From assembly GCF_009911265.1 (NCBI RefSeq), contig NZ_QXXA01000019.1, positions 1-36,629 on the forward strand: a stretch of DNA of 36,629 nt, written 5' to 3'. Positions 3,145 through 27,064 of the stretch are shown in pieces. The notes under the pieces were generated by a model, which was not told the DNA's origin, ran no database searches, and worked only from the letters and a program-made list of their open reading frames with translations. The DNA comes from Senegalia massiliensis. GTDB taxonomy: Bacteria; Bacillota; Clostridia; Tissierellales; SIT17. The position numbers and the translations under genes were made by a program. Within the stretch, counting starts at the first letter, position 1; each line of letters begins with the position of its first letter.

Positions 3145-5796
3145 TTAAATCACCTCCATTAATCTATTTATTTCTTTTTGTTGTTGCTTAGTTATATTAT
3201 TTAATTGTTGTATTGCTACCGTTAATAATGATATCATACCACCAATATCCCTAGCTTCTTCTTCTACAACTTCATTTCCTAAATCTTCTTCACTAATTTT
3301 TATTCCTAATTCTTCAAATCTAGTAAAATTAATTCTAGGTGCAATTTCACCTGTAACTTCAGACTTTTTAATTTTAATTCTTTTCCTTACAAAGTCAGGC
3401 AACGTATTATGATCTAAGCTGCCTTTCTGATCACTTTTTATATTAACAATTTCAGAAAGTGCATCACCAATAAAAAATGGAGTCCTGTCAGTTATTGATT
3501 GGGCTGACATATTTCCAGTTACATAAACATCATCACCACATTTTACCCTTCCTCCTAAAGGATTTAGTCGAAGTTCACCTAAATGTTGAGCATAATGTTC
3601 TGCTGAATGACCTACTTGTATCATTGCTATTCTATCATTAGATGTTCCTCCAACTATAAAAGACAACGCATTATTATAGTTTTCAATAAGTAAATTGGAA
3701 TTATATTTTGAGTTCCAAACATCATTTGAACTAGGTGTTGCATTTATTAAATCTAATGTTCTATTAGTTGTTCTATTAATATGAACAGGACTTCCTATAT
3801 AACCATTTATATTCAATCTATCTTGTAAATCACAACCATAAGATACAGTGAGATTTTTTGTTATATAAAATCTATTAGTATTTTTTTGATACTTCCAAAT
3901 GACACCATTACCACCCCAATCATACATTTGAACACAATTGTCATAGTTTTGAGTGCTTTCAAAGCCAATATTTCCATCTGGAAACCTGAAATATATTTTG
4001 CTTGGGTTAATATTATCACCAATATATATATGTTCTCTTACTACCATATTTTTAGAAGCCTCTATATTTCCTCCAACTTCTAATTCATAATTTCCTTCAT
4101 GACTTTTCCCTATAGCTAAATTTTCAAAAGGAACTCCTACTTTAATTTTATCTTTCAAGAAACTTAATAAAGCTATTCCTTCAGGTAATTCCATTGTAAT
4201 TGTTAACCAATTACTAAATTTATCTTTTATCTCTAAGTACACAGAAAATGATTTATCATTAGGATGGTCTCCTATAAACTCATTTAGATCTACATGCTGC
4301 CATATTCCATTTTTGTGAGAATTATTTCCTGTAGCACTAGTTGTAGATCCACTCTCTACGCTATACCTAATATATAATTCATTAATGTCATTACCATTAA
4401 TATTTACTACTGACCTTCTTAATTCAGCATTAATATAGCTTGATTCTTCATAATTATTTAATCTATCAGCACTATAGTTTACAGGCTCTGGTTCATAGTA
4501 ATTAATTACTTGTATAGTAAAACTTCTACTTGCCTTATTCCCTCTACTATCTATAACAGTTAATACTGCAGTTTGATTGCTAGATTGATCTAAAGGTCCC
4601 CAATATATTTTTTTGCCTGTTTCACTTGTCCCACTTGTTGCAATAGAGTATTCATTTCCACCTATACTAAGCTTGTAACTTTTTAAAGTTGCACCTTTTT
4701 GAGAGGATGCTGTTCCAGCAGTTACTTCTAAATAAGACTTATTTCTTAATATTAGTTGATCATTATTTAATATAGCCTGTACATTAGTATCTGTATCTTT
4801 ATAGGTCACTCCATCTATACTAGGGTTTGCATTAACTATAGTAAGTTCTCCATATTCATAAGTAGTACCTTGTACAGTTCCATTACTTCCCCATTTAGAT
4901 ACAATCTTTAGTCTAGTATTTGATTTATTAGATTGAACTCTACCATTGTAAATCTCATTTAATTGAGTACTTGTAAAGTTAAATATACCTTTAGTAGTTA
5001 CATTACTAATTCTAGCAATCTCTTCCCACCTTTGTTCATCATGCCAAAAATACAAGTATAAATCATGATACATACTTGTAGATTTTCTAGAAATGTTTAT
5101 AGTTAAATTTCCATCTGTATCAAAATCAGGTTCATTTGAAGTGGATAATCCTACAGTAGTAATTGTTATAGTTCCTGATGTAGTCCACAATCCACTATCT
5201 TTACTCCTCACTCTTATTTTAACTGTATATCTAGTTCCTGGTTTTAATCCAGTTATATAAAAATAATTAGATGAATTATGAGTATCCTGCCAACTCCCTC
5301 CATTTAAAGAGTAGTCAACATTGTCTATAGTTTTATCTGTTGCATAATTTATTTTAAATTGTGTACCCCTTATATTATTTGCATATAATGAAGTTATCTT
5401 TGCATAACGAGGTATAGTAGTTAAATCCATTGTGCCAGATTTACTTGCATTTCCTGTAGCTACACCTGACCATGTGATGCTAACTTCTTGATAAAAAGAT
5501 ATTGCTACATTTTTCTTAGTTCCGTTACTATTATGATAAACTTTCGTTGTACCACTTGCTATGGTTTTAGTTCCACTTCCCCCAATAGTAGTGCTACCGC
5601 TTTTTACTGTTGTACCATTTATTTTTATGTTATAGCTTTTACTTGCAGATGAATATACTTGTCTAGGTCTATAAAGTTTTAATGAGTATTCTAATATAGT
5701 ATAGTTTCCTGATATACTTTGAGATTTTTGAGTTACATATAACTTTACATACGGACTATAACTATTTATACCTGGATTCCATGTTAATGTTGCCAA
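3145..5796 (-). CDS. Tail tip/fibre protein, DUF859 family, with fibronectin III domain
   Basis: This 883-residue structural protein probably forms the distal tail fibre or baseplate appendage that contacts the cell surface. Residues 1-125 match the DUF859 pattern seen in siphophage minor structural proteins, rich in S, T and Y. Residues about 130-215 look like a fibronectin type III domain ('LKPGTRYTVKIRVRS'). Further beta-rich segments follow. The C-terminal 60 residues end in a helical 'LLTVAIQQLNNITKQQQKEI' stretch, as in proteins trimerised by a terminal coiled coil. The start is TTG at 5796 with GGGAGGTGA upstream. It follows the Tal gene by five bases. Confidence 0.88.
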   Translation of the reverse strand: MATLTWNPGINSYSPYVKLYVTQKSQSISGNYTILEYSLKLYRPRQVYSSASKSYNIKINGTTVKSGSTTIGGSGTKTIASGTTKVYHNSNGTKKNVAISFYQEVSITWSGVATGNASKSGTMDLTTIPRYAKITSLYANNIRGTQFKINYATDKTIDNVDYSLNGGSWQDTHNSSNYFYITGLKPGTRYTVKIRVRSKDSGLWTTSGTITITTVGLSTSNEPDFDTDGNLTINISRKSTSMYHDLYLYFWHDEQRWEEIARISNVTTKGIFNFTSTQLNEIYNGRVQSNKSNTRLKIVSKWGSNGTVQGTTYEYGELTIVNANPSIDGVTYKDTDTNVQAILNNDQLILRNKSYLEVTAGTASSQKGATLKSYKLSIGGNEYSIATSGTSETGKKIYWGPLDQSSNQTAVLTVIDSRGNKASRSFTIQVINYYEPEPVNYSADRLNNYEESSYINAELRRSVVNINGNDINELYIRYSVESGSTTSATGNNSHKNGIWQHVDLNEFIGDHPNDKSFSVYLEIKDKFSNWLTITMELPEGIALLSFLKDKIKVGVPFENLAIGKSHEGNYELEVGGNIEASKNMVVREHIYIGDNINPSKIYFRFPDGNIGFESTQNYDNCVQMYDWGGNGVIWKYQKNTNRFYITKNLTVSYGCDLQDRLNINGYIGSPVHINRTTNRTLDLINATPSSNDVWNSKYNSNLLIENYNNALSFIVGGTSNDRIAMIQVGHSAEHYAQHLGELRLNPLGGRVKCGDDVYVTGNMSAQSITDRTPFFIGDALSEIVNIKSDQKGSLDHNTLPDFVRKRIKIKKSEVTGEIAPRINFTRFEELGIKISEEDLGNEVVEEEARDIGGMISLLTVAIQQLNNITKQQQKEINRLMEVI

Positions 5797-19309: not shown

Positions 19310-20704
19310 CTACTCTATGCCATCATCTGGAACTTTATTATTATTCATATTAGGTAGCATATCTTTAGCTTGATCCTCTGTAACTCCATATCTTTCCATT
19401 AGATACTTTTCAGGTTTAATCAATCCTGCTGCAACTTCTTGTAGCATTATAGCTTGTTCTGATTTACTATCAATAATAATACTGTCATCAAACTCAAAAC
19501 TAACTTCATATTCCCCTTTGCCACCTAATTTATCATTATCAGCAAGATAATTCATAGCATATAGTAACTGCTCTAGGCTTACTCTTAAGGCCTTTTGTAT
19601 ATCTACTACAGTAGAATAAGATCTTTGTTTACTAGCTTTTATTTCTTCTGCTGTTTTTTCTATTAATTCAATATCACTTAAAGTACCATATGCAAGTCCA
19701 CAGTTAAACTCAACTCTTTTAAGTAGTTTATTTAGTCCATTGAATAAAGGCTCATCTCTAATATCAGGATTAAATAGTTTATAAAAATTTTCATCTTCTG
19801 TATCTAAGCTTCTGAATATTCTCTTTTTACCCTTAGGTAATTCTCCATTATTAATCATATCTATATTTGCATCTATAGCTAATTCTGTTCCTTCATATTC
19901 CCAAAGTATTTTAGTATACTGCTTATCTATTTCTTTCATAATATTTACTGCTTTAGAATATACTGATACTCCTAGATTACTTTTACTATCTATACTATTA
20001 GCTAATGGCATTTTAAAGTAAGCAAATAGAGGTTTTTCTACGTTCTTAAGGTTTACTTCTGGTATTATATCTTTCCATGCTTCTACTTCTGTAATCTCTA
20101 TTTCTTTACCTGCTTCGTTATAGCACTTATTAGATATATAATAAATACCATCATTTAATAAATGATGGTATTCTAATCTTGTATATTTCTTATTCTTTTC
20201 TATTGTTGTATCTGGAAATATTGCAGCTATTAAATCTCCACTGGAACTAAATTTAACTGGATAAAACTCTCCTTGTTGTATATAGTCTACTGCTATATCT
20301 TTACCATCTACAAAAGGTTTAAATATAATTCCACCTTTAGCAGCTGCATATTCAGTATTTACTCTAATCTTATCTATAACTTTTTGATATTGATCATTTA
20401 AGTATGATGCTCTTTGCGATTTAATTTTAGATTCGCCTTCTTTTTTACCTGTAACTTCTGATTTCATTTCTATCGTTACAAGTCTAGCTAATTCACTAGC
20501 AATACTAGAAGATATATTAAGGCTCTGCAAATCTTCCTCTTCTAACCAAGGAGGATTATCTTCATACATCTGAGTCCATAATTCAATAGCTTTAGTCATT
20601 TCATCTGATATGTCTATATCTACATCTATATTATTTTCTAAATTCTTATTAGGAAATATCTTACTCACCACCTTGCTTATTAAACTCTTTGTTCTCTCAA
20701 ACAA
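19310..20704 (-). CDS. Portal protein (SPP1 gp6 family)
   Basis: This 464-residue protein forms the dodecameric DNA entry port. It shows the SPP1-type pattern: 'LWTQMYEDNPPWLEEED', 'AAAKGGIIFKPFVDGK', the long crown-adjacent helix, and 'TAEEIKASKQRSYSTVVDIQKAL'. Order after the large terminase is standard. It starts with TTG at 20704, with GAGGTGATGAA upstream. Confidence 0.95.
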   Translation of the reverse strand: MFERTKSLISKVVSKIFPNKNLENNIDVDIDISDEMTKAIELWTQMYEDNPPWLEEEDLQSLNISSSIASELARLVTIEMKSEVTGKKEGESKIKSQRASYLNDQYQKVIDKIRVNTEYAAAKGGIIFKPFVDGKDIAVDYIQQGEFYPVKFSSSGDLIAAIFPDTTIEKNKKYTRLEYHHLLNDGIYYISNKCYNEAGKEIEITEVEAWKDIIPEVNLKNVEKPLFAYFKMPLANSIDSKSNLGVSVYSKAVNIMKEIDKQYTKILWEYEGTELAIDANIDMINNGELPKGKKRIFRSLDTEDENFYKLFNPDIRDEPLFNGLNKLLKRVEFNCGLAYGTLSDIELIEKTAEEIKASKQRSYSTVVDIQKALRVSLEQLLYAMNYLADNDKLGGKGEYEVSFEFDDSIIIDSKSEQAIMLQEVAAGLIKPEKYLMERYGVTEDQAKDMLPNMNNNKVPDDGIE

Positions 20705-20716
20705 TTCATCACCTCA

Positions 20717-22027
20717 TTACTGATTAATAAATCTTTTAGCATCTCTTTCAATGCTATATTCTAGTGCATCTAATGTATCTATATCACTTGTACCATCATC
20801 AAGTCTTTTAAGTTCATCAGTTTCACTGTCCCATACTGCATTCGTAAGAGCATCTTCTACAGTTTCAGCATTTTGGGTATAAGAAAACCTCCCTTGTGCC
20901 ATAAGGGAAGTTACAAGTCTAATTCTATCTACTATAGGTATTTTCTTTGAATCTCTTATTGTAATATTTAATCTTTCTTTTTTAGCTACATTCTTAAATC
21001 CTCTAATAAGAACTTGTTCATTATTATCTGGATAAACATAATTTACTTTACCATACTTATTTATAATCCTTTTTACAAAATCTATAAATAATTGATTTAA
21101 TCCATCTGGATCTACATCTGTTTCATATCTTTCACTCTCTAAAATAACTACCTCTTTATATCCTCTAGTTATTCCAGTAGCAACAAAGGCATGTTTTGAT
21201 TCATTACCTCCAAAATCTATGCCTATATTTATACTCATATAATTTCTTTTAGCTTTGTCTGTTCTGTATTTCTTAGGATTAGTAGCAAACTGTCTATATA
21301 TAAGACCCTCCGCTATCATCCTTTTACCTATTATATCTCTTTGATACCATATAGAATTCTTATCATATTGACTTATTATTTCAGCTATTCTTTGTTCAGT
21401 TAGATTGATATTATCAAATATAGTAAAGTGTTGATAATTATAACCACCAACTAATTCAGCTTCTTCTTGCTTTTTCTTATAAAGATCTATATATTCAGTG
21501 TAAATTTGATGCTTAGGTTTAGAAGGGTTTAAATCCCAAAATATCTTTCTATTCTTAGCCATAAGTTGTCTATTAAAAGCTTCTTTAATAGTATTATCAT
21601 GGTGTAGGTTAATTTCTGTTGCTATCCACATTCCATAAGAGTTACCCCTTATCTTTTTAAAACTATCGGCTTTAGCTCCACCAGCAAATATAACAATCTT
21701 TTCTCCAGTCATTGTTTTAACATAGATACATTCATTGTCTTTAAACTTTCCCCAACGACTTCTACCTCTAAATATATACTCTAATCCAAATCCATTAGCT
21801 TCACCTATATTTAATTTAGCATTTGCAGCAGTAGATCCAGTTGCAAGATGTATCTTATCTGGTGTTCTTTCAAGTTCCATAGCAAAGGCAAAAACATTAT
21901 CTATAGTTTTTCCAGCTCTTACTGCTCCTTCAGCAACGTTTATAGTGTTATATTTACAATTTCTTATATATTCTTTGTGTTTCTCACCAAATCCCCAGTT
22001 TATAGTTTTTGTCTTAGTTATTGCCAT
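20717..22027 (-). CDS. terL: Terminase large subunit
   Basis: This ATP-driven packaging motor and headful/cos nuclease belongs to the PBSX-type terminase family. The Walker A motif is at residues 34-41 (GAVRAGKT), a Walker B-like segment with the catalytic glutamate is at 131-141 (E138), and the first nuclease aspartate is D271 in 'GIDFGGN'. The start at 22027 is chosen because GGTGAT precedes it. The frame is open four codons further upstream, but with no ribosome site. It overlaps the small subunit by 14 bases. Confidence 0.96.
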   Translation of the reverse strand: MAITKTKTINWGFGEKHKEYIRNCKYNTINVAEGAVRAGKTIDNVFAFAMELERTPDKIHLATGSTAANAKLNIGEANGFGLEYIFRGRSRWGKFKDNECIYVKTMTGEKIVIFAGGAKADSFKKIRGNSYGMWIATEINLHHDNTIKEAFNRQLMAKNRKIFWDLNPSKPKHQIYTEYIDLYKKKQEEAELVGGYNYQHFTIFDNINLTEQRIAEIISQYDKNSIWYQRDIIGKRMIAEGLIYRQFATNPKKYRTDKAKRNYMSINIGIDFGGNESKHAFVATGITRGYKEVVILESERYETDVDPDGLNQLFIDFVKRIINKYGKVNYVYPDNNEQVLIRGFKNVAKKERLNITIRDSKKIPIVDRIRLVTSLMAQGRFSYTQNAETVEDALTNAVWDSETDELKRLDDGTSDIDTLDALEYSIERDAKRFINQ

Positions 22028-22742
22028 ATATATCACCATAAACTTCTGATAAATCTTCTATATCTGTACTAGCACCAGTAATCTTATTGGTATCAGCTTT
22101 AAGCTTTTCTATTCTAGCTTTTTGTTCTTCTGTAGCTAAATCAGTTTTAAGCATTTCTTCATACCTTTTTATCATACTTCTAAGCTCACCCATTGCTCTG
22201 GATTGTGCTTTTAAAAATGTTGCTTGCCTATCCCAACTAAATTGAAACTCATACTCTTCTTCTATAGGTAATTGTTCTGATTCATCATCTATTGTTGCTA
22301 TTTCATATTTAGATTTTTTAAGTTCTTTTATCATTTCTTCTTTATCCTGGACATACATAATTCTTTGGCTTCTTATTATTGCTGCATATTGTATTTGTAT
22401 GTTTTCCCATAAAATATCTAATGGATTCTTAACTTTTATCTCCTGGATAAGATCTAATGTTTCACCAGGAAGATACTTTGAAAAGAATCCATGTTTTTCT
22501 GCATTTTTATTTTTAACAGGTGCTCCATGACCTGCAGCATTTTTATTATTTAAGGGCGCACCCTTTTTACTTTTGTGTGCACCCTTTTGCTTTTTCTCTT
22601 TAGCCCATCCATATCTTTTAACCCATGATTTTATTGTATTTAAACTTACATCATATTTATCTGCTAAATCCTTATATTTCATACCTTTAATGTAATCTTC
22701 TTTGGCCATATCTTTTGTATCTGGACTTCTTACTCTTGCCAT
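22014..22742 (-). CDS. terS: Terminase small subunit (PBSX type)
   Basis: This 242-residue DNA-recognition subunit has an N-terminal helix-turn-helix (residues about 18-45, 'KYKDLADKYDVSLNTIKSWV'), a basic K-G-A-P repeat region rich in N and K (about 52-85), a central helical oligomerisation domain and an acidic C-terminus that should bind the large subunit. GAGGTGGTGGT lies before the ATG. The gene opens the packaging and head block and is preceded by a terminator. Confidence 0.92.
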   Translation of the reverse strand: MARVRSPDTKDMAKEDYIKGMKYKDLADKYDVSLNTIKSWVKRYGWAKEKKQKGAHKSKKGAPLNNKNAAGHGAPVKNKNAEKHGFFSKYLPGETLDLIQEIKVKNPLDILWENIQIQYAAIIRSQRIMYVQDKEEMIKELKKSKYEIATIDDESEQLPIEEEYEFQFSWDRQATFLKAQSRAMGELRSMIKRYEEMLKTDLATEEQKARIEKLKADTNKITGASTDIEDLSEVYGDIYGNN

Positions 22743-22783
22743 ACCACCACCTCGATTGCTATATGCTTTTGTTTGTTTTGGAT

Positions 22784-22812
22784 ATAAAAAAACACCTACC
22801 TAAGTAGATGCG
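22784..22812 (-). terminator. Terminator between the PH-like gene and the terminase genes
   Basis: On the minus strand CATCTAC (22810-22804) pairs with GTAGGTG (22799-22793) around a TTAG loop, followed by seven T. It separates the accessory block from the terminase operon. Confidence 0.8.
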
Positions 22813-22818
22813 TATGTA

Positions 22819-23382
22819 TTATAATTCAATTTGCCCTGTTTTCTTTTCTCCTTCAGGTTTTTGAGGTTCATATTTTTTTAATTCATCATGTAATGTTTTA
22901 TATTCCCAATTTTCCTTCTTACTTGAAAACATAATTTGTTTTTCTTCTCCATTACTTTTATATCCTATAATCAGCTTTTTTTTAGTCTTTGTTTTCTTCT
23001 TAGTTCCAATACCACTCATACCACCAACAACAGCTCCATCTGAATCGTCTAATAAATGCCCTATCATTGCTCTACCTACTACAGATTTATCTTTTTCGTA
23101 TACTTCAGTTACTGTAATATTTTTTACATACTCAAACTTATCCATATCTAATACTATTGCATTTTCTTTTTGTTTTCCGAGTAATAATTTACCCATATAT
23201 AATTTATTTTCTTTAGGATTCAATTCTATAGATGTTCTTTGACCTTTTTCTATATTAGGTAATCCTTCTAAATGATGTAATTGAACAAATACTTTAGTTT
23301 TTTTATTTCTCTTTTCTCTATATTTTTGCTTATGTTCTTCATTCTTTTTATTTAATTCTTTTATCATATCAAAAAATCCCAT
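22819..23382 (-). CDS. PH-like protein with glycine zipper
   Basis: This 187-residue protein has a charged helix (residues 1-30), a beta region resembling bacterial PH domains ('NKLYMGKLLLGKQKENAIVLD'), and the glycine-zipper segment 'GGMSGIGTKKKTKTKKK' seen in small bacterial membrane-associated proteins of the PH/SHOCT group. In usual homologues the first half of the zipper is fully hydrophobic; here it carries D-D-S-D, which is unusual. The gene has a GGGAGG site, an AT-rich upstream gap and its own terminator. It looks like a cargo gene; function unknown. Confidence 0.7.
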   Translation of the reverse strand: MGFFDMIKELNKKNEEHKQKYREKRNKKTKVFVQLHHLEGLPNIEKGQRTSIELNPKENKLYMGKLLLGKQKENAIVLDMDKFEYVKNITVTEVYEKDKSVVGRAMIGHLLDDSDGAVVGGMSGIGTKKKTKTKKKLIIGYKSNGEEKQIMFSSKKENWEYKTLHDELKKYEPQKPEGEKKTGQIEL

Positions 23383-23491
23383 AATATTATACCTCCCTTA
23401 TATATATTATTATAATATATGGAGGAAAATTTTACTAATATTATATTATTTAAAATTGCATTTGATAATTGTTTTCTCATCTCATCATCTA

Positions 23492-23520
23492 AAATAAAAA
23501 GACACTCTATTGAGTGCCAA
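23492..23520 (-). terminator. Terminator after the sce7726-sce7725 cassette
   Basis: On the minus strand GGCACTC (23518-23512) pairs with GAGTGTC (23507-23501) around AATA, followed by TTTTTATTTT. It closes the unit containing the 79-residue gene, sce7725 and sce7726. Confidence 0.85.
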
Positions 23521-23537
23521 AGTTATATACTTTATAT

Positions 23538-23777
23538 TCAATATTTATCTATCATCTTTGCTGCTTTTTCTTTGAATCCATTTTTTCCATATTCAATTTT
23601 ATTAATCAAATCATATATTTCTTCTCTTAATTTTTTGATATTAGTATATAGATATCCATCTTGATTATATTTAGTTAACTCATAAATATTTCCATTCTCC
23701 AAATGAATCATTATGTTTTCAATATTGTTTAATTCATGTGAATACTTCTTTATTATATCAATTTTTTTATTTGTCAT
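23538..23777 (-). CDS. Small helical protein downstream of sce7725
   Basis: This 79-residue protein is not recognised. It is lysine- and glutamate-rich and predicted to be mostly helical ('LREEIYDLINKIEYGK'). The ATG at 23777 has GAGGTG six bases upstream; the ATG one codon before it is too close to the site. It follows sce7725 after about 35 bases without a terminator and is followed by one. It is therefore probably the third gene of the same operon, either a real partner or an older phage gene. Confidence 0.65.
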   Translation of the reverse strand: MTNKKIDIIKKYSHELNNIENIMIHLENGNIYELTKYNQDGYLYTNIKKLREEIYDLINKIEYGKNGFKEKAAKMIDKY

Positions 23778-23812
23778 CATTGACACCTCTTTTCTTAAGA
23801 AAAACAGATATA

Positions 23813-24748
23813 TTAATTAGTTGTTTCTAAATATTCATTTACTAACTCTAAATGATGCATAATTGAAAGTTTCTTAACTACACCTAGTCCTGAGTATTTA
23901 CTTTCTTTATACAGTCTTTTGAACTCTTTTAATCCTTCTGTTTCTTTTATATTCCTATTATTACTCCATTCTATAAGTTTTTTTAGTGCTTCACCAAACT
24001 TGCCAGCTGGATCTTGAATATCTTCATTAGAATTTGATACAAAATGTCTAATTCTTAAATTAGATTCATCATCAAAGTAATGTATATGTATAGCAACAGC
24101 AAAAGGTGCAAATCCTGTATCTTTATATTCTGATCCTACAACAGAGAAGTCAGAAAATCCTATATACCCATCATCTTTAAAGTATATATGATCATCAGAA
24201 AAAAATTCATCTTCTTTTTTTAGGTAATCAATATTTCTAGCTCTTTTATTGAATTTATCGTCTGATATTACTCTACTATCTTTTATTTTTCTTCTAAATG
24301 AACTTTCATCTTTTATTAAAGTATACTTAGGTTTATCTTCGCAAAAATATTTTTCATATGTTTCTAAATAATCGATATCATTTATACATACTATTATAGA
24401 GTCTAATTTGTCATTAATTTGTATTTGAGGTATTTCCTCTTCAGAATCTTCATTCATAATATATGTCTTAATAATATTCTCATCATTTAATAACTCTTTG
24501 TATTTATCATATAATGTATCATTTTTAGATTCTTCTATATCTTCTTGAAAAGCACCTACTTGTGGATTTATCACTATCCCTATATTATTTTTTCGTTTAA
24601 TAAATTCCTGTATTGTTGAAATTAATGTTGATGATAACTTAACTGGTTCTATTATTGGAATCGTTTTATCACTTATTAAATAATTTTCGCTTAAGTTTCT
24701 TAATGCAATTAATTCAAATTGCTTCCCTCTCAAATATGGAAAATACAT
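23813..24748 (-). CDS. sce7725 family protein
   Basis: This 311-residue protein begins MYFPYLRGKQFELIALRNL and has 'IPIIEPVKLSSTL' soon after. I recognise this layout as the sce7725 family, which is related to T4 beta-type proteins and occurs beside sce7726 in mobile regions. The reaction is unknown. The conserved FPYLRGKQFE start, the E-P-V motif and a later 'GFSDFSVVG' segment look like parts of a folded enzyme or sensor. The start at 24748 is preferred because GGGGGG lies seven bases upstream. It starts two bases after the sce7726 stop, so the two are translated together. Confidence 0.85.
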   Translation of the reverse strand: MYFPYLRGKQFELIALRNLSENYLISDKTIPIIEPVKLSSTLISTIQEFIKRKNNIGIVINPQVGAFQEDIEESKNDTLYDKYKELLNDENIIKTYIMNEDSEEEIPQIQINDKLDSIIVCINDIDYLETYEKYFCEDKPKYTLIKDESSFRRKIKDSRVISDDKFNKRARNIDYLKKEDEFFSDDHIYFKDDGYIGFSDFSVVGSEYKDTGFAPFAVAIHIHYFDDESNLRIRHFVSNSNEDIQDPAGKFGEALKKLIEWSNNRNIKETEGLKEFKRLYKESKYSGLGVVKKLSIMHHLELVNEYLETTN

Positions 24749-24750
24749 AT

Positions 24751-25605
24751 TTAATCCCCCCATTTTTTTTCTAGAAATTGTTCTAATAGTTTATAATCTT
24801 TTTTCTTTAAATTAAGAAAATACATAATAAATCTTAACTCATATGGAACGATATTCTTATATTTTTCTATCATTGTTTTATCCCTTTTTTTAAGCTCTTT
24901 TATCATTAAGGATTGTAATTTTTCAATATTTATTGTTTTAATTAGTTCAAAACATTTTTTGTAGTAATTAAAATCTGTAGTTTCTGGAAGGTATCCAAAC
25001 TCACTGAGAATTAAGTTTTCAAATTCATTCTTTCTTATAATTTTAAATATTTCATTATATCTCAGCTTTGTACTATCAGTCATTATTTTTTTTCTATAGC
25101 TTAATGTATTTCGACTTGTTAATACATAAATACCTACGTTTGTTTGTTTCAACTTTTCTTTAGCTTTTAAATAATTTGATTCACTAGTTACTAAACAAAC
25201 ATTAGTAAAAGCTTTGTAGTAATCATCAATTTGAGAATTTAATCTCTCAAAATTATCTAATTCAGTCTTTATTTCATATACTACTGCTTCTCCATTAATC
25301 ATTATATAATCAGCTTTAGATTTTGCTATTGGTATTTCAGTAAGTGCAGTCGTAGTATTTAAACTATGCCTACCTAATAAAAGTTTATTAAATAATGTAT
25401 TCTTATAAAAATACTCATTTCTATAATTCTTTTCTAAGTATTTATATATATAATTTATTGCCATTTTATTAGTTAAATCTTTCTTTTCTGAAATATAGTT
25501 ATTTATACATATATTATATTTTTCTGCAATTCTGCCATCTATCAAATTTCTAAAAGTGTTTTTTGAAAAAAAATTATTAAGTATCAAATCACCATTGTTT
25601 TCCAT
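24751..25605 (-). CDS. sce7726 family protein, PD-(D/E)XK nuclease-like
   Basis: This 284-residue protein matches the family I know as sce7726. Residues about 85-140 show a PD-(D/E)XK nuclease core: E90, D99 (in KADYI), then E111-I-K113, with Q125 in the following helix. This is the layout of restriction-type and repair nucleases. The flanking regions are helical and lysine-rich, as for a DNA- or RNA-binding protein. AAGGGG stands nine bases before the ATG, after a gap of about 150 AT-rich bases with several TATAAT-like hexamers. It is the first gene of the cassette. Cleavage activity is inferred, not shown. Confidence 0.85.
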   Translation of the reverse strand: MENNGDLILNNFFSKNTFRNLIDGRIAEKYNICINNYISEKKDLTNKMAINYIYKYLEKNYRNEYFYKNTLFNKLLLGRHSLNTTTALTEIPIAKSKADYIMINGEAVVYEIKTELDNFERLNSQIDDYYKAFTNVCLVTSESNYLKAKEKLKQTNVGIYVLTSRNTLSYRKKIMTDSTKLRYNEIFKIIRKNEFENLILSEFGYLPETTDFNYYKKCFELIKTINIEKLQSLMIKELKKRDKTMIEKYKNIVPYELRFIMYFLNLKKKDYKLLEQFLEKKWGD

Positions 25606-25758
25606 AAAAATTCTACCCCTTATAATACTAAAATTTATATTATATGATTATAAATCAATATCACTTATTTAATATAATAACAGATATATTATATCATTGA
25701 AAACTATGATTTTATGATTAATAAATTTATTAAAAAAGAAGTTATGTTTTTGTTCGTT

Positions 25759-26127
25759 TTAGATATTATATGACTCCCCAGTTCTTGTACTAGTCTTACA
25801 TGTATTACATATAGCAGTTAATGTACCTGGATATATGTTTCTGAGATGCATTCTAATAAGTTTCTGATTATTATCCCAACAATTACTACAATAAGGTTCT
25901 TTATACTCAATATCATCTTTCTTGTAATAACTATTATTTTTAAAAATTAGTGATTTACTTATTTCGGTGTTATCCTTCAATTCTTTAATTTTTTCTTTTA
26001 AATTCTTATTCTCCTCCAATAAGTCTAAACTTTCTTTTTGTACATCAAGTAATGCCCTATATAACTCAACATTATCTGCTTTTTGAGCTATATTAACTGC
26101 ATCTTTTAAAGCATCGTATACTCCCAT
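25759..26127 (-). CDS. Coiled-coil protein with C-terminal zinc ribbon
   Basis: This 122-residue protein starts with helices ('YDALKDAVNIAQKADNVELYRALLDVQ') and a coiled coil over residues about 25-55. It then has a zinc ribbon with C80-x-x-C83 and C107-x-x-C110. It belongs to a group of uncharacterised proteins common in Firmicute phages and islands. Its strong AAAGGGGGTG site and position just before the sce7726 gene place it in the accessory block. No terminator separates it from sce7726. Confidence 0.8.
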   Translation of the reverse strand: MGVYDALKDAVNIAQKADNVELYRALLDVQKESLDLLEENKNLKEKIKELKDNTEISKSLIFKNNSYYKKDDIEYKEPYCSNCWDNNQKLIRMHLRNIYPGTLTAICNTCKTSTRTGESYNI

Positions 26128-26209
26128 AAATTCACCCCCTTTATATATACAAAATTCTACATAGAAAGGGACAATCCTTCATATTTTCATCGCAATATTC
26201 GACAATATT

Positions 26210-26353
26210 CTATATTAACTTATCATACTGCTTTATAATTTCTTTTGCTGCATTATACTTTTCTAGTACCTCTTTAAGCTCTTTTCTTAATTGTCTTAAC
26301 TCATACTCTCTTTTTGTAAGGTCCTCCATTAGTGATTTTTCATTTTGAGTCAC
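26210..26353 (-). CDS. 47-residue coiled-coil microprotein
   Basis: A GTG at 26353 with AGGTG six bases upstream opens a 47-residue frame. It is charged and helical throughout, with heptad-like spacing ('LRKELKEVLEKYNAAKEII'). It overlaps the preceding cysteine-rich gene by 14 bases in another frame, typical of tightly packed phage genes. Function unknown. Confidence 0.65.
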   Translation of the reverse strand: MTQNEKSLMEDLTKREYELRQLRKELKEVLEKYNAAKEIIKQYDKLI

Positions 26354-26483
26354 TTTTATCACCTTTCTTTTTCTTATTGCTGCAACTTGGTAGCATACAA
26401 TAATAAGTATTTGAATCTATTTTAGTTCTCCATATACAATTTTTACATTTACTCTTATTAAATTTCTTATCTGTCATTTTCAT
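26340..26483 (-). CDS. 47-residue cysteine-rich microprotein
   Basis: An ATG at 26483 with AAGGTGAG upstream opens a 47-residue frame with C13-x-x-C16 and C29-x(4)-C34, a likely single zinc site, and a lysine-rich C-terminus. Similar tiny zinc proteins are widespread in clostridial phages. It is the first gene past the hairpin that follows the proposed late promoter. Confidence 0.65.
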   Translation of the reverse strand: MKMTDKKFNKSKCKNCIWRTKIDSNTYYCMLPSCSNKKKKGDKSDSK

Positions 26484-26504
26484 ATTCTCACCTTTTTGGC
26501 ATAA

Positions 26505-26542
26505 TAAAAAGAACACTCCTGGCGTTTAAGTGTTCTTTTATA
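26505..26542. terminator. Bidirectional terminator in the late leader
   Basis: AAAAGAACACT (26507-26517) pairs perfectly with AGTGTTCTTTT (26529-26539), 11-base loop, with A/T runs on both sides. It lies between the regulator gene and the first late-side gene, just downstream of a promoter-like sequence. Confidence 0.85.
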
Positions 26543-26562
26543 TATAATATTAAATTTATGAT

Positions 26563-26590
26563 GAAAGCCTGTGTATTTCGTCGGTCTTTC
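26563..26590 (-). other. Stem-loop in the proposed late leader RNA
   Basis: On the minus strand GAAAG-A-CC (26590-26583) pairs with GGCTTTC (26569-26563), one bulged base, 13-base loop. It would be the first structure in a transcript starting near 26594. Confidence 0.4.
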
Positions 26591-26600
26591 TCTTAATACC

Positions 26601-26645
26601 ATCATAGCATGGCAATTTCCAAATTTCCGTATACTCTAAGTATAC
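26601..26645 (-). promoter_or_regulatory. Proposed activator-dependent late promoter
   Basis: On the minus strand an extended -10, TGCTATGAT (26609-26601), has no -35 match (CGGAAA at the right place). A perfect 7-bp inverted repeat, GTATACT-TAG-AGTATAC (26645-26629), is centred about 43 bases upstream of the expected start. This is where class II activators bind. The repeat overlaps the stop codon of the sigma-like regulator. Confidence 0.5.
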
Positions 26646-27064
26646 AATTTCTTATTCTTTGCAGATACTTTTTTAATCCATATTACACTATAACCTAACT
26701 CATCTGCTATTTCTTCTAAAGTTTTACCTTCTACATCTCTTAAATATACTACTTTATAGTCTATTCCTTCTAGTTGCTTCATATTGCTTTTTATTTTATC
26801 TATAATTTCTTTATAATTCTTAATAGTTTCGTTATGTAGATGTATATGACTGTCTAATTTTTGTAATCTTATAAGTCCTTCTGCCATATCTAATTTAACC
26901 TTTCCACCTGTTACTCTTTCACTAGAATAATCTAATGATCCACTTGAGTCAGATGTGCTCATACACTTTTGAATAAATTCTTTTTCTTTTTCATATACTT
27001 CTTTTCTTAATTCCCATATTCTTAATATTCTATTTAAATCTTTTATGCCACTACCCATATCCAT
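26636..27064 (-). CDS. Sigma-70 region 4-like late regulator
   Basis: This 142-residue protein has a helical N-terminal half and a C-terminal helix-turn-helix of the sigma region 4 type (residues about 103-135, 'VVYLRDVEGKTLEEIADELG'). Proteins of this kind (ArpU/late activator-like) lie between early and late genes in Firmicute phages and switch on the late genes. A palindrome and an extended -10 promoter lie at its 3' end. The ATG has an AGTAGGA site. It shares an operon with the 109-residue gene upstream. Confidence 0.85.
   Translation of the reverse strand: MDMGSGIKDLNRILRIWELRKEVYEKEKEFIQKCMSTSDSSGSLDYSSERVTGGKVKLDMAEGLIRLQKLDSHIHLHNETIKNYKEIIDKIKSNMKQLEGIDYKVVYLRDVEGKTLEEIADELGYSVIWIKKVSAKNKKLYT

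Follow-up and report, generated by a model that had tools for sequence, protein, structure and literature searches.

What is the role of two adjacent genes of the sce7726 and sce7725 families that lie upstream of terminase genes, and do they act without the toxin gene that follows them in most relatives? The question is raised by a contig of Senegalia massiliensis (NZ_QXXA01000019.1), which was analyzed over its whole length of 36,629 bases (hereafter, the window) and belongs to a 3.1 Mb assembly of 53 contigs that is 99% complete. Gene 1 (25605-24751, minus strand) encodes an sce7726-family protein of 284 amino acids, and gene 2 (24748-23813, minus strand) encodes an sce7725-family protein of 311 amino acids. 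The stop codon of gene 1 and the ATG of gene 2 at 24748 are separated by two bases, in agreement with the original prediction, which had been made from the sequence alone; an alternative start of gene 2 at 24763 in the list of open reading frames (ORFs) would overlap gene 1. Our tentative answer, to which we assign a probability of roughly 0.45, is that this cassette is prophage cargo, i.e., a two-protein core of the gop-beta-cII type without a RES gene, and that it functions as a stand-alone anti-phage or exclusion unit with the nuclease as its effector. The core itself is already known through gop-beta-cII and the curated NCBI families.

Families and predicted folds of the two proteins

Both family assignments of the original prediction were borne out by the NCBIfam models: the gene 1 protein matched NF033832 (sce7726) with 177.7 bits at a cut-off of 70, and the gene 2 protein matched NF033831 (sce7725) with 348.6 bits at a cut-off of 60. 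The PADLOC model 'cll' also matched gene 1 (1e-13). A Pfam search with gene 1 gave no match, and a PDB sequence search with its profile returned 13 PadR rows (E 0.38-0.83), which were taken as chance matches. The AlphaFold2 model of the gene 1 protein, based on an alignment of 77 sequences, had a predicted local distance difference test (pLDDT) score of 95.7. The fold comparison of both proteins covers the families among the matches listed. For gene 1, the Foldseek matches had weak E-values (best 1.1e-3) and included the Cas4-family ACE1, SfsA, 2vld (a repair endonuclease of Pyrococcus), and Holliday-junction resolvases. In VIA-align, the model matched PaqCI (Z 8.6, 3.5 Å over 129 residues), XisH-type proteins (Z 7.4), the CRISPR ancillary nucleases Can2 (Z 6.8) and Card1 (Z 6.7), and 2vld (NucS/EndoMS, Z 6.6); the top row was 3dnx (Z 9.0), a protein of unknown function. 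The nuclease fold that had been expected was thus present in the structure model. Residues D99, E111, K113, and Q125 were identical in all 77 aligned sce7726 rows (window included), and Y129 was found in 75 of them. The proposed PD-(D/E)XK core, D99 and E111-I112-K113, is therefore in place, and the Q-x3-Y pattern is reminiscent of RecB/Cas4-type nucleases. By its fold and its D...EXK residues, the gene 1 protein is predicted to be a PD-(D/E)XK nuclease, with DNA cleavage as its predicted activity.

A PDB sequence search with the gene 2 profile gave no match. The AlphaFold2 model of this protein (pLDDT 96.0, alignment of 82 sequences) resembles a triosephosphate isomerase (TIM)-type (beta/alpha) barrel: in VIA-align, 876 of 1000 chains reached a Z of at least 5, and the best Z was 10.2. 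Among the matches listed, the barrels tie within about 1 Z, and no single enzyme family stands out. E34, N61, and D200 were invariant in all 82 sce7725 rows, and D164 was conserved in 75. These four residues are located directly after predicted strands of the barrel model, and barrel enzymes hold their active sites just after the strands. Polar residues conserved at such places suggest that the sce7725 barrel might bind a ligand or contain an active site, so that sce7725 may be an enzyme or a sensor and not a simple antitoxin.

The pair is linked to the gop-beta-cII genes of phage P4 through both of its proteins. In the P4 record (NC_001609), cII is annotated as an sce7726 protein and adjoins beta. 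Comparison of profiles with hhalign connected the cII group with sce7726 (99.4%, E 7.6e-22) and the Beta group with sce7725 (89.9%, E 1.7e-6); both crossed controls gave 0.1%. Profiles of single groups cross-matched weakly (E about 1e-4). The Beta-sce7725 link is seen by profiles but is weak by the gene 2 sequence alone, for which Pfam Beta_protein gave an E of 0.03, below the cut-off. For the earlier description of gene 2 as having a beta-protein-like fold, direct sequence comparison is thus the weak point. Among 27 viral sce7726 loci, of which at least 7 repeat contigs of another viral scan and some are near-copies, sce7725 was located beside the gene in 16, Beta in 8, and neither in 3. Because these loci carry either one as the partner, sce7725 and Beta appear to fill the same place. 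Beta was on the strand opposite to sce7726 in 8 of 8 viral loci, and sce7725 was co-directional with sce7726 in all 16. Judged by the profile comparisons, the pair is probably the core of a gop-beta-cII kind of system.

Other arrangements of the core were also observed. In one locus (L164:3902-7301), sce7726 is convergent with Beta near a HigA-like gene and a gene for a 108-residue HigB-like protein, and in another (L169:3713-6779), it is convergent with an unassigned protein in Beta's place, near a HigA-like gene (HigA and HigB assigned by eye). These two loci hint at a further toxin type with the same core. In L158:2942-4729, the order is reversed, with sce7725 before sce7726, right after helix-turn-helix- and ImmA/IrrE-like genes (by eye). 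In L152:1795-2640, sce7726 occurs without sce7725 or Beta, alongside phage-lysis-like genes and with a reverse-transcriptase-like gene ~1.7 kb on (by eye).

The P4 system gop-beta-cII guards Escherichia coli against lambda and P1, according to the accessible part of Rousset et al. 2022 (PMC9122126). In the open literature searched, as far as its text was available, anti-phage activity is reported for the P4 genes only, publications that mention sce7726 or sce7725 give no function, and no publication was found that connects sce7725 with Beta or deals with the two-gene form. The original prediction had proposed an uncharacterised defence or exclusion system. A defence or exclusion role is likely; 'uncharacterised' is too strong, because the activity of gop-beta-cII is published, in the parts of that article available, and because the PADLOC model and the P4 cII annotation recognize sce7726.

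RES, the usual third gene, and the two-gene form

The sce7726 and sce7725 genes occur together, as a survey of their homologues, suggested along with the original prediction, has confirmed. When genome contigs were searched with the alignment of sce7725, 471 relatives were obtained, and in the best 80 of these 471, sce7726 adjoined sce7725 in 80/80 loci and a RES-type protein came next in 75/80. In a few genome loci, RES was split into two pieces, incomplete, or truncated where the contig stops. In viral loci with sce7725, sce7726 was adjacent in 32 of 34 and RES was present in 14 of 34, many of these being near-copies; the viral scans found such relatives with alignments as queries but none with the single window proteins. 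When 398 genomes were sampled evenly from the phylum, 9 carried sce7725 (that of the window included), and RES was present in 7 of the other 8, once in two pieces. The RES type was assigned by a profile grown from five seeds, and Pfam RES (PF08808) passed its cut-off in all four third genes checked. The sce7726-sce7725-RES trio was seen in Salmonella, Moraxella, Shinella, Rhizobium, Pseudorhizobium, and many Bacillota. RES domains are said to be NAD-degrading toxins, which reportedly form RES-Xre toxin-antitoxin modules. In the accessible text of a Pseudomonas paper (PMC9394441), the trio is mentioned without a function.

Other genes were found downstream of sce7725 in place of RES (Pfam assignments), namely those for a macro-domain protein (L042:5941-7005), an FRG-domain protein (L088:6098-6946), a cytidine-deaminase-type protein (L007:2563-3930), and a GNAT protein (L008:7001-7513).

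The RES profile had no match among the window ORFs, and the best E in the six frames of 20001-27000 was 0.054. No RES was found in the window's genome assembly either. The first reading of the locus could not see the usual third gene because it is absent from the window.

The two-gene form is not confined to this contig. In a tree of 98 sce7725 rows, the RES label requires 10 changes, at least 5 of which are forced by the starred branches. The nuclease residues D, E, K, and Q were kept in all 11 RES-less rows of the 77-row alignment and were also found in each of 7 additional rows from two-gene units. For pairs of RES-less relatives, the ratio of nonsynonymous to synonymous substitution rates (dN/dS) was 0.07-0.17 for both genes, and the usable RES-bearing pair gave 0.06 and 0.12; a further RES-bearing pair (L010/L012) was saturated at synonymous sites and was left out. 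In the window itself, only 2 of 43 and 1 of 29 positions that are conserved in RES-bearing rows are changed. Because residues are kept, selection is purifying, and the form recurs in RES-less copies, the toxin-free form appears to be a maintained state.

In E. coli SK1144 (L176:6636-17009), the pair is located beside the integrase of a small integrated element near a tRNA-Arg gene; the element also has P2-type capsid, Icd-like, DUF927, and Ogr/Delta-like genes. Two other RES-less units follow P4-type-primase-like genes (by eye). The two-gene form thus recurs in prophages and satellites. Matches to the E. coli two-gene unit, each with an identity of at least 99%, were found in 421 of 5,426 complete E. 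coli genomes and extended over at least 80% of the length in 420 of them, so that a laboratory strain could be used to ask whether the nuclease and the barrel suffice without a toxin. The Salmonella type with RES was found in 18 of the 5,426 genomes.

Roles considered for the pair

We infer that the pair acts alone and propose how it might do so. In the lysogen, sce7725 would keep the sce7726 nuclease inactive or direct it. The entry of another phage would then lift the restraint on sce7726, and the freed nuclease would cut either invading or cellular DNA, so that growth of the competitor would be blocked. Where other loci have RES, Gop, or another toxin, it would serve as an additional effector subject to the same control.

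Several observations weigh against a stand-alone defence unit. The published protection is that of gop-beta-cII including its toxin, not of Beta with cII or of the sce7725 pair, in the accessible part of PMC9122126. No promoter of its own stood out for the cassette: 23 promoter-like matches were found in the region, compared to a shuffle mean of 22.0, which is the chance level. The place of the window in the tree, within a group of 78 rows of which 70 have RES, is weakly supported (Shimodaira-Hasegawa-like approximate likelihood ratio test, 82). The window's own copy is not among the pairs for which dN/dS was determined. Of the 43 positions conserved in RES-bearing rows, 7-12 are missing from the most divergent sce7725 rows without RES (L108-L112), compared to 4-5 in rows that carry RES and are similarly or slightly less divergent; some constraint may therefore go with the toxin. 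Among the E. coli matches listed, at least 2 of 8 copies have the insertion sequence IS1 within the matched region. Finally, because Beta is the antidote to Gop in P4, an antidote without a toxin is equally thinkable.

This last point leads to the main rival explanation, in which the pair is a toxin-less antidote set, i.e., a sensor and an antitoxin that would neutralize RES, a Gop-like toxin, or another abortive toxin of rival systems and would serve in counter-defence or anti-addiction. It would fit the report that Gop is toxic without Beta in P4 (the available text of PMC9122126, citing Ghisotti 1990), and also the presence of RES in most relatives and its absence from the window and its assembly. 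RES-less units were moreover commoner in viral rows (13/19) than elsewhere (7/84; Fisher p 1e-7), but this enrichment was not significant after kinship correction (4 usable pairs, median p 1). The comparison is biased in sampling because most non-viral rows are the best 80 of the 471, and our reading is not rested on it. These counts exclude L108, whose contig stops at the gene, two records of doubtful origin (L003 and L004), the window copies L001 and L006, sce7725 fragments shorter than 280 residues (L013, L123, L124, L126, and L127), rows identical to others, and repeated contigs or near-copies. Against an antidote set, no RES gene was found in the host assembly for neutralizing, and RES-less copies retain every one of the nuclease residues, which a pure antidote would not need. 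We consider this explanation unlikely, and prefer the defence unit with the nuclease as effector.

The cassette could instead be a decaying remnant of a three-gene system, now deprived of its toxin and no longer functional. RES-bearing relatives do surround the window in the tree, with the weak support given above, and some relatives show damage of the expected kind, with RES in two pieces or with IS1 in the E. coli copies. However, both window genes are intact and depart from so few conserved positions, no remnant of RES was detected in the six frames of 20001-27000, and the RES-less relatives are under purifying selection. Decay is thus improbable.

A role of the pair in the phage cycle (packaging, recombination, or lysogeny control) and not in defence is to be weighed against the surroundings of the cassette. 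The cassette lies upstream of the terminase genes, and a late-regulator-like gene (26636-27064, by eye) is located on its other side; the cargo-like position that had been claimed for it is thereby upheld. Its G+C content is 0.22-0.25, compared to 0.27-0.31 in both flanks. An AT-rich, non-coding intergenic region of 153 bases (25606-25758, minus strand) lies 5' of the pair, and a promoter is possible there. Between the cassette and the terminase, 22819-23382 (minus strand) encodes a 187-residue protein of the phage families phrog_17658 and phrog_20665, whose function is not known. The terminase genes partly resemble those of Clostridioides phages (~67-70% identity for the best rows, over part of the length). 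The location between a late-regulator-like gene and terminase genes would suit a phage-cycle function, and PD-(D/E)XK proteins also act in recombination and repair. In contrast, several relatives were located on plasmids or next to genes of integrative elements and had a RES gene behind them, RES follows in 75/80 genome loci, and the sce profiles had no match in the terminase-flanking stretches of three Clostridioides phages, where other genes are located upstream of the terminase. We therefore see little room for a phage-cycle role.

The remaining candidate is gene 3 (23777-23538, minus strand), which encodes a 79-residue protein of phrog_37959 (1.8e-18) and is possibly co-transcribed with the pair. 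Its ATG at 23777 is 35 bases 3' of gene 2 on the same strand, ahead of an intrinsic terminator (23518-23501, minus strand) that ends the cassette. The strong terminator noted at the outset was recovered in a scan against shuffled sequences (1 found, shuffle mean 0.2), with a folding energy of -9.9 kcal/mol (z -2.76). A profile of four gene 3-type proteins did not detect the domain in any of the 159 sce loci of the survey, and the sce7725, sce7726, RES, Beta, and cII profiles had no match around the gene 3 relatives (L128 and L138-L141). One of these relatives, in the phage record MT837010 (L128:6652-8228), is located 26 bases after a gene for a 431-residue reverse transcriptase (Pfam RVT_1), and the two may form an unrecognized reverse transcriptase defence unit. 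In L139 (G442, 3914-5230), the domain is the C-terminus of a tyrosine-recombinase-like protein; further relatives were found near an integrase in one genome and alone in another. In G532, the frame of the match is interrupted by a stop, and a match in G431 lies within an MnmE-like gene and was taken as false. Judged by these sequence comparisons, gene 3 is a wandering small domain and not a regular partner of the pair. The 79-residue gene had been put forward as a component of the unit; as a specific third component it is unsupported, since its domain is absent from sce loci and sce genes are absent near its relatives. A three-gene system in which the 79-residue protein replaces RES as effector or regulator, as its strand, its distance from gene 2, and its place before the terminator might suggest, has only a slight chance given this distribution, given relatives that accompany a reverse transcriptase or an integrase, are fused to a recombinase, or stand alone, and given that the protein has no hydrophobic segment, unlike Gop.

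Relation to known systems

The analysis ties sce7726 and sce7725, annotated as unknown families, to a proven defence system without an explained mechanism, names the likely toxin for most relatives, and provides predicted folds for both core proteins. In a broader and rather doubtful view, Beta/sce7725 could be a common control module of TIM-barrel fold that pairs with a cII-type nuclease and can be combined with varied toxins (RES NAD-degraders, Gop-type, and possibly HigB-like), and which phages would repeatedly cut to a toxin-free two-gene form, acting through the nuclease only or as a broad antidote.

The gene 1 protein has its predicted fold and the D...EXK signature in common with PaqCI, XisH-type proteins, NucS/EndoMS, Can2, and Card1, but gave no meaningful sequence match in the PDB. 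RES-Xre modules share the RES toxin type with the relatives of the window, whereas the window and its genome are without RES; sce7725 may stand in for the antitoxin. Compared to the sce7726-sce7725-RES trio, the window pair belongs to the same families in the same order with near-zero spacing and differs in that neither the window nor its genome has RES.

P4 Gop, like two proteins in similar positions, is short and has an N-terminal hydrophobic part (19-residue maxima of the three, 2.01, 1.51, and 2.17). A profile of these three Gop-type proteins gave no match at E 1 in the six frames of the window, although a very divergent Gop could escape so small a profile. Because both gop and RES are missing, we do not call the cassette a member of the full gop-beta-cII system or of the RES trio. 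Apart from the absence of a detectable gop relative, the window differs from gop-beta-cII in that its genes are co-directional, whereas P4 beta and cII are convergent, and in that its partner protein sce7725 is only distantly related to P4 Beta. What the two have in common is a nuclease-type protein of the sce7726/cII kind with a Beta/sce7725 partner, carried as cargo of a phage element.

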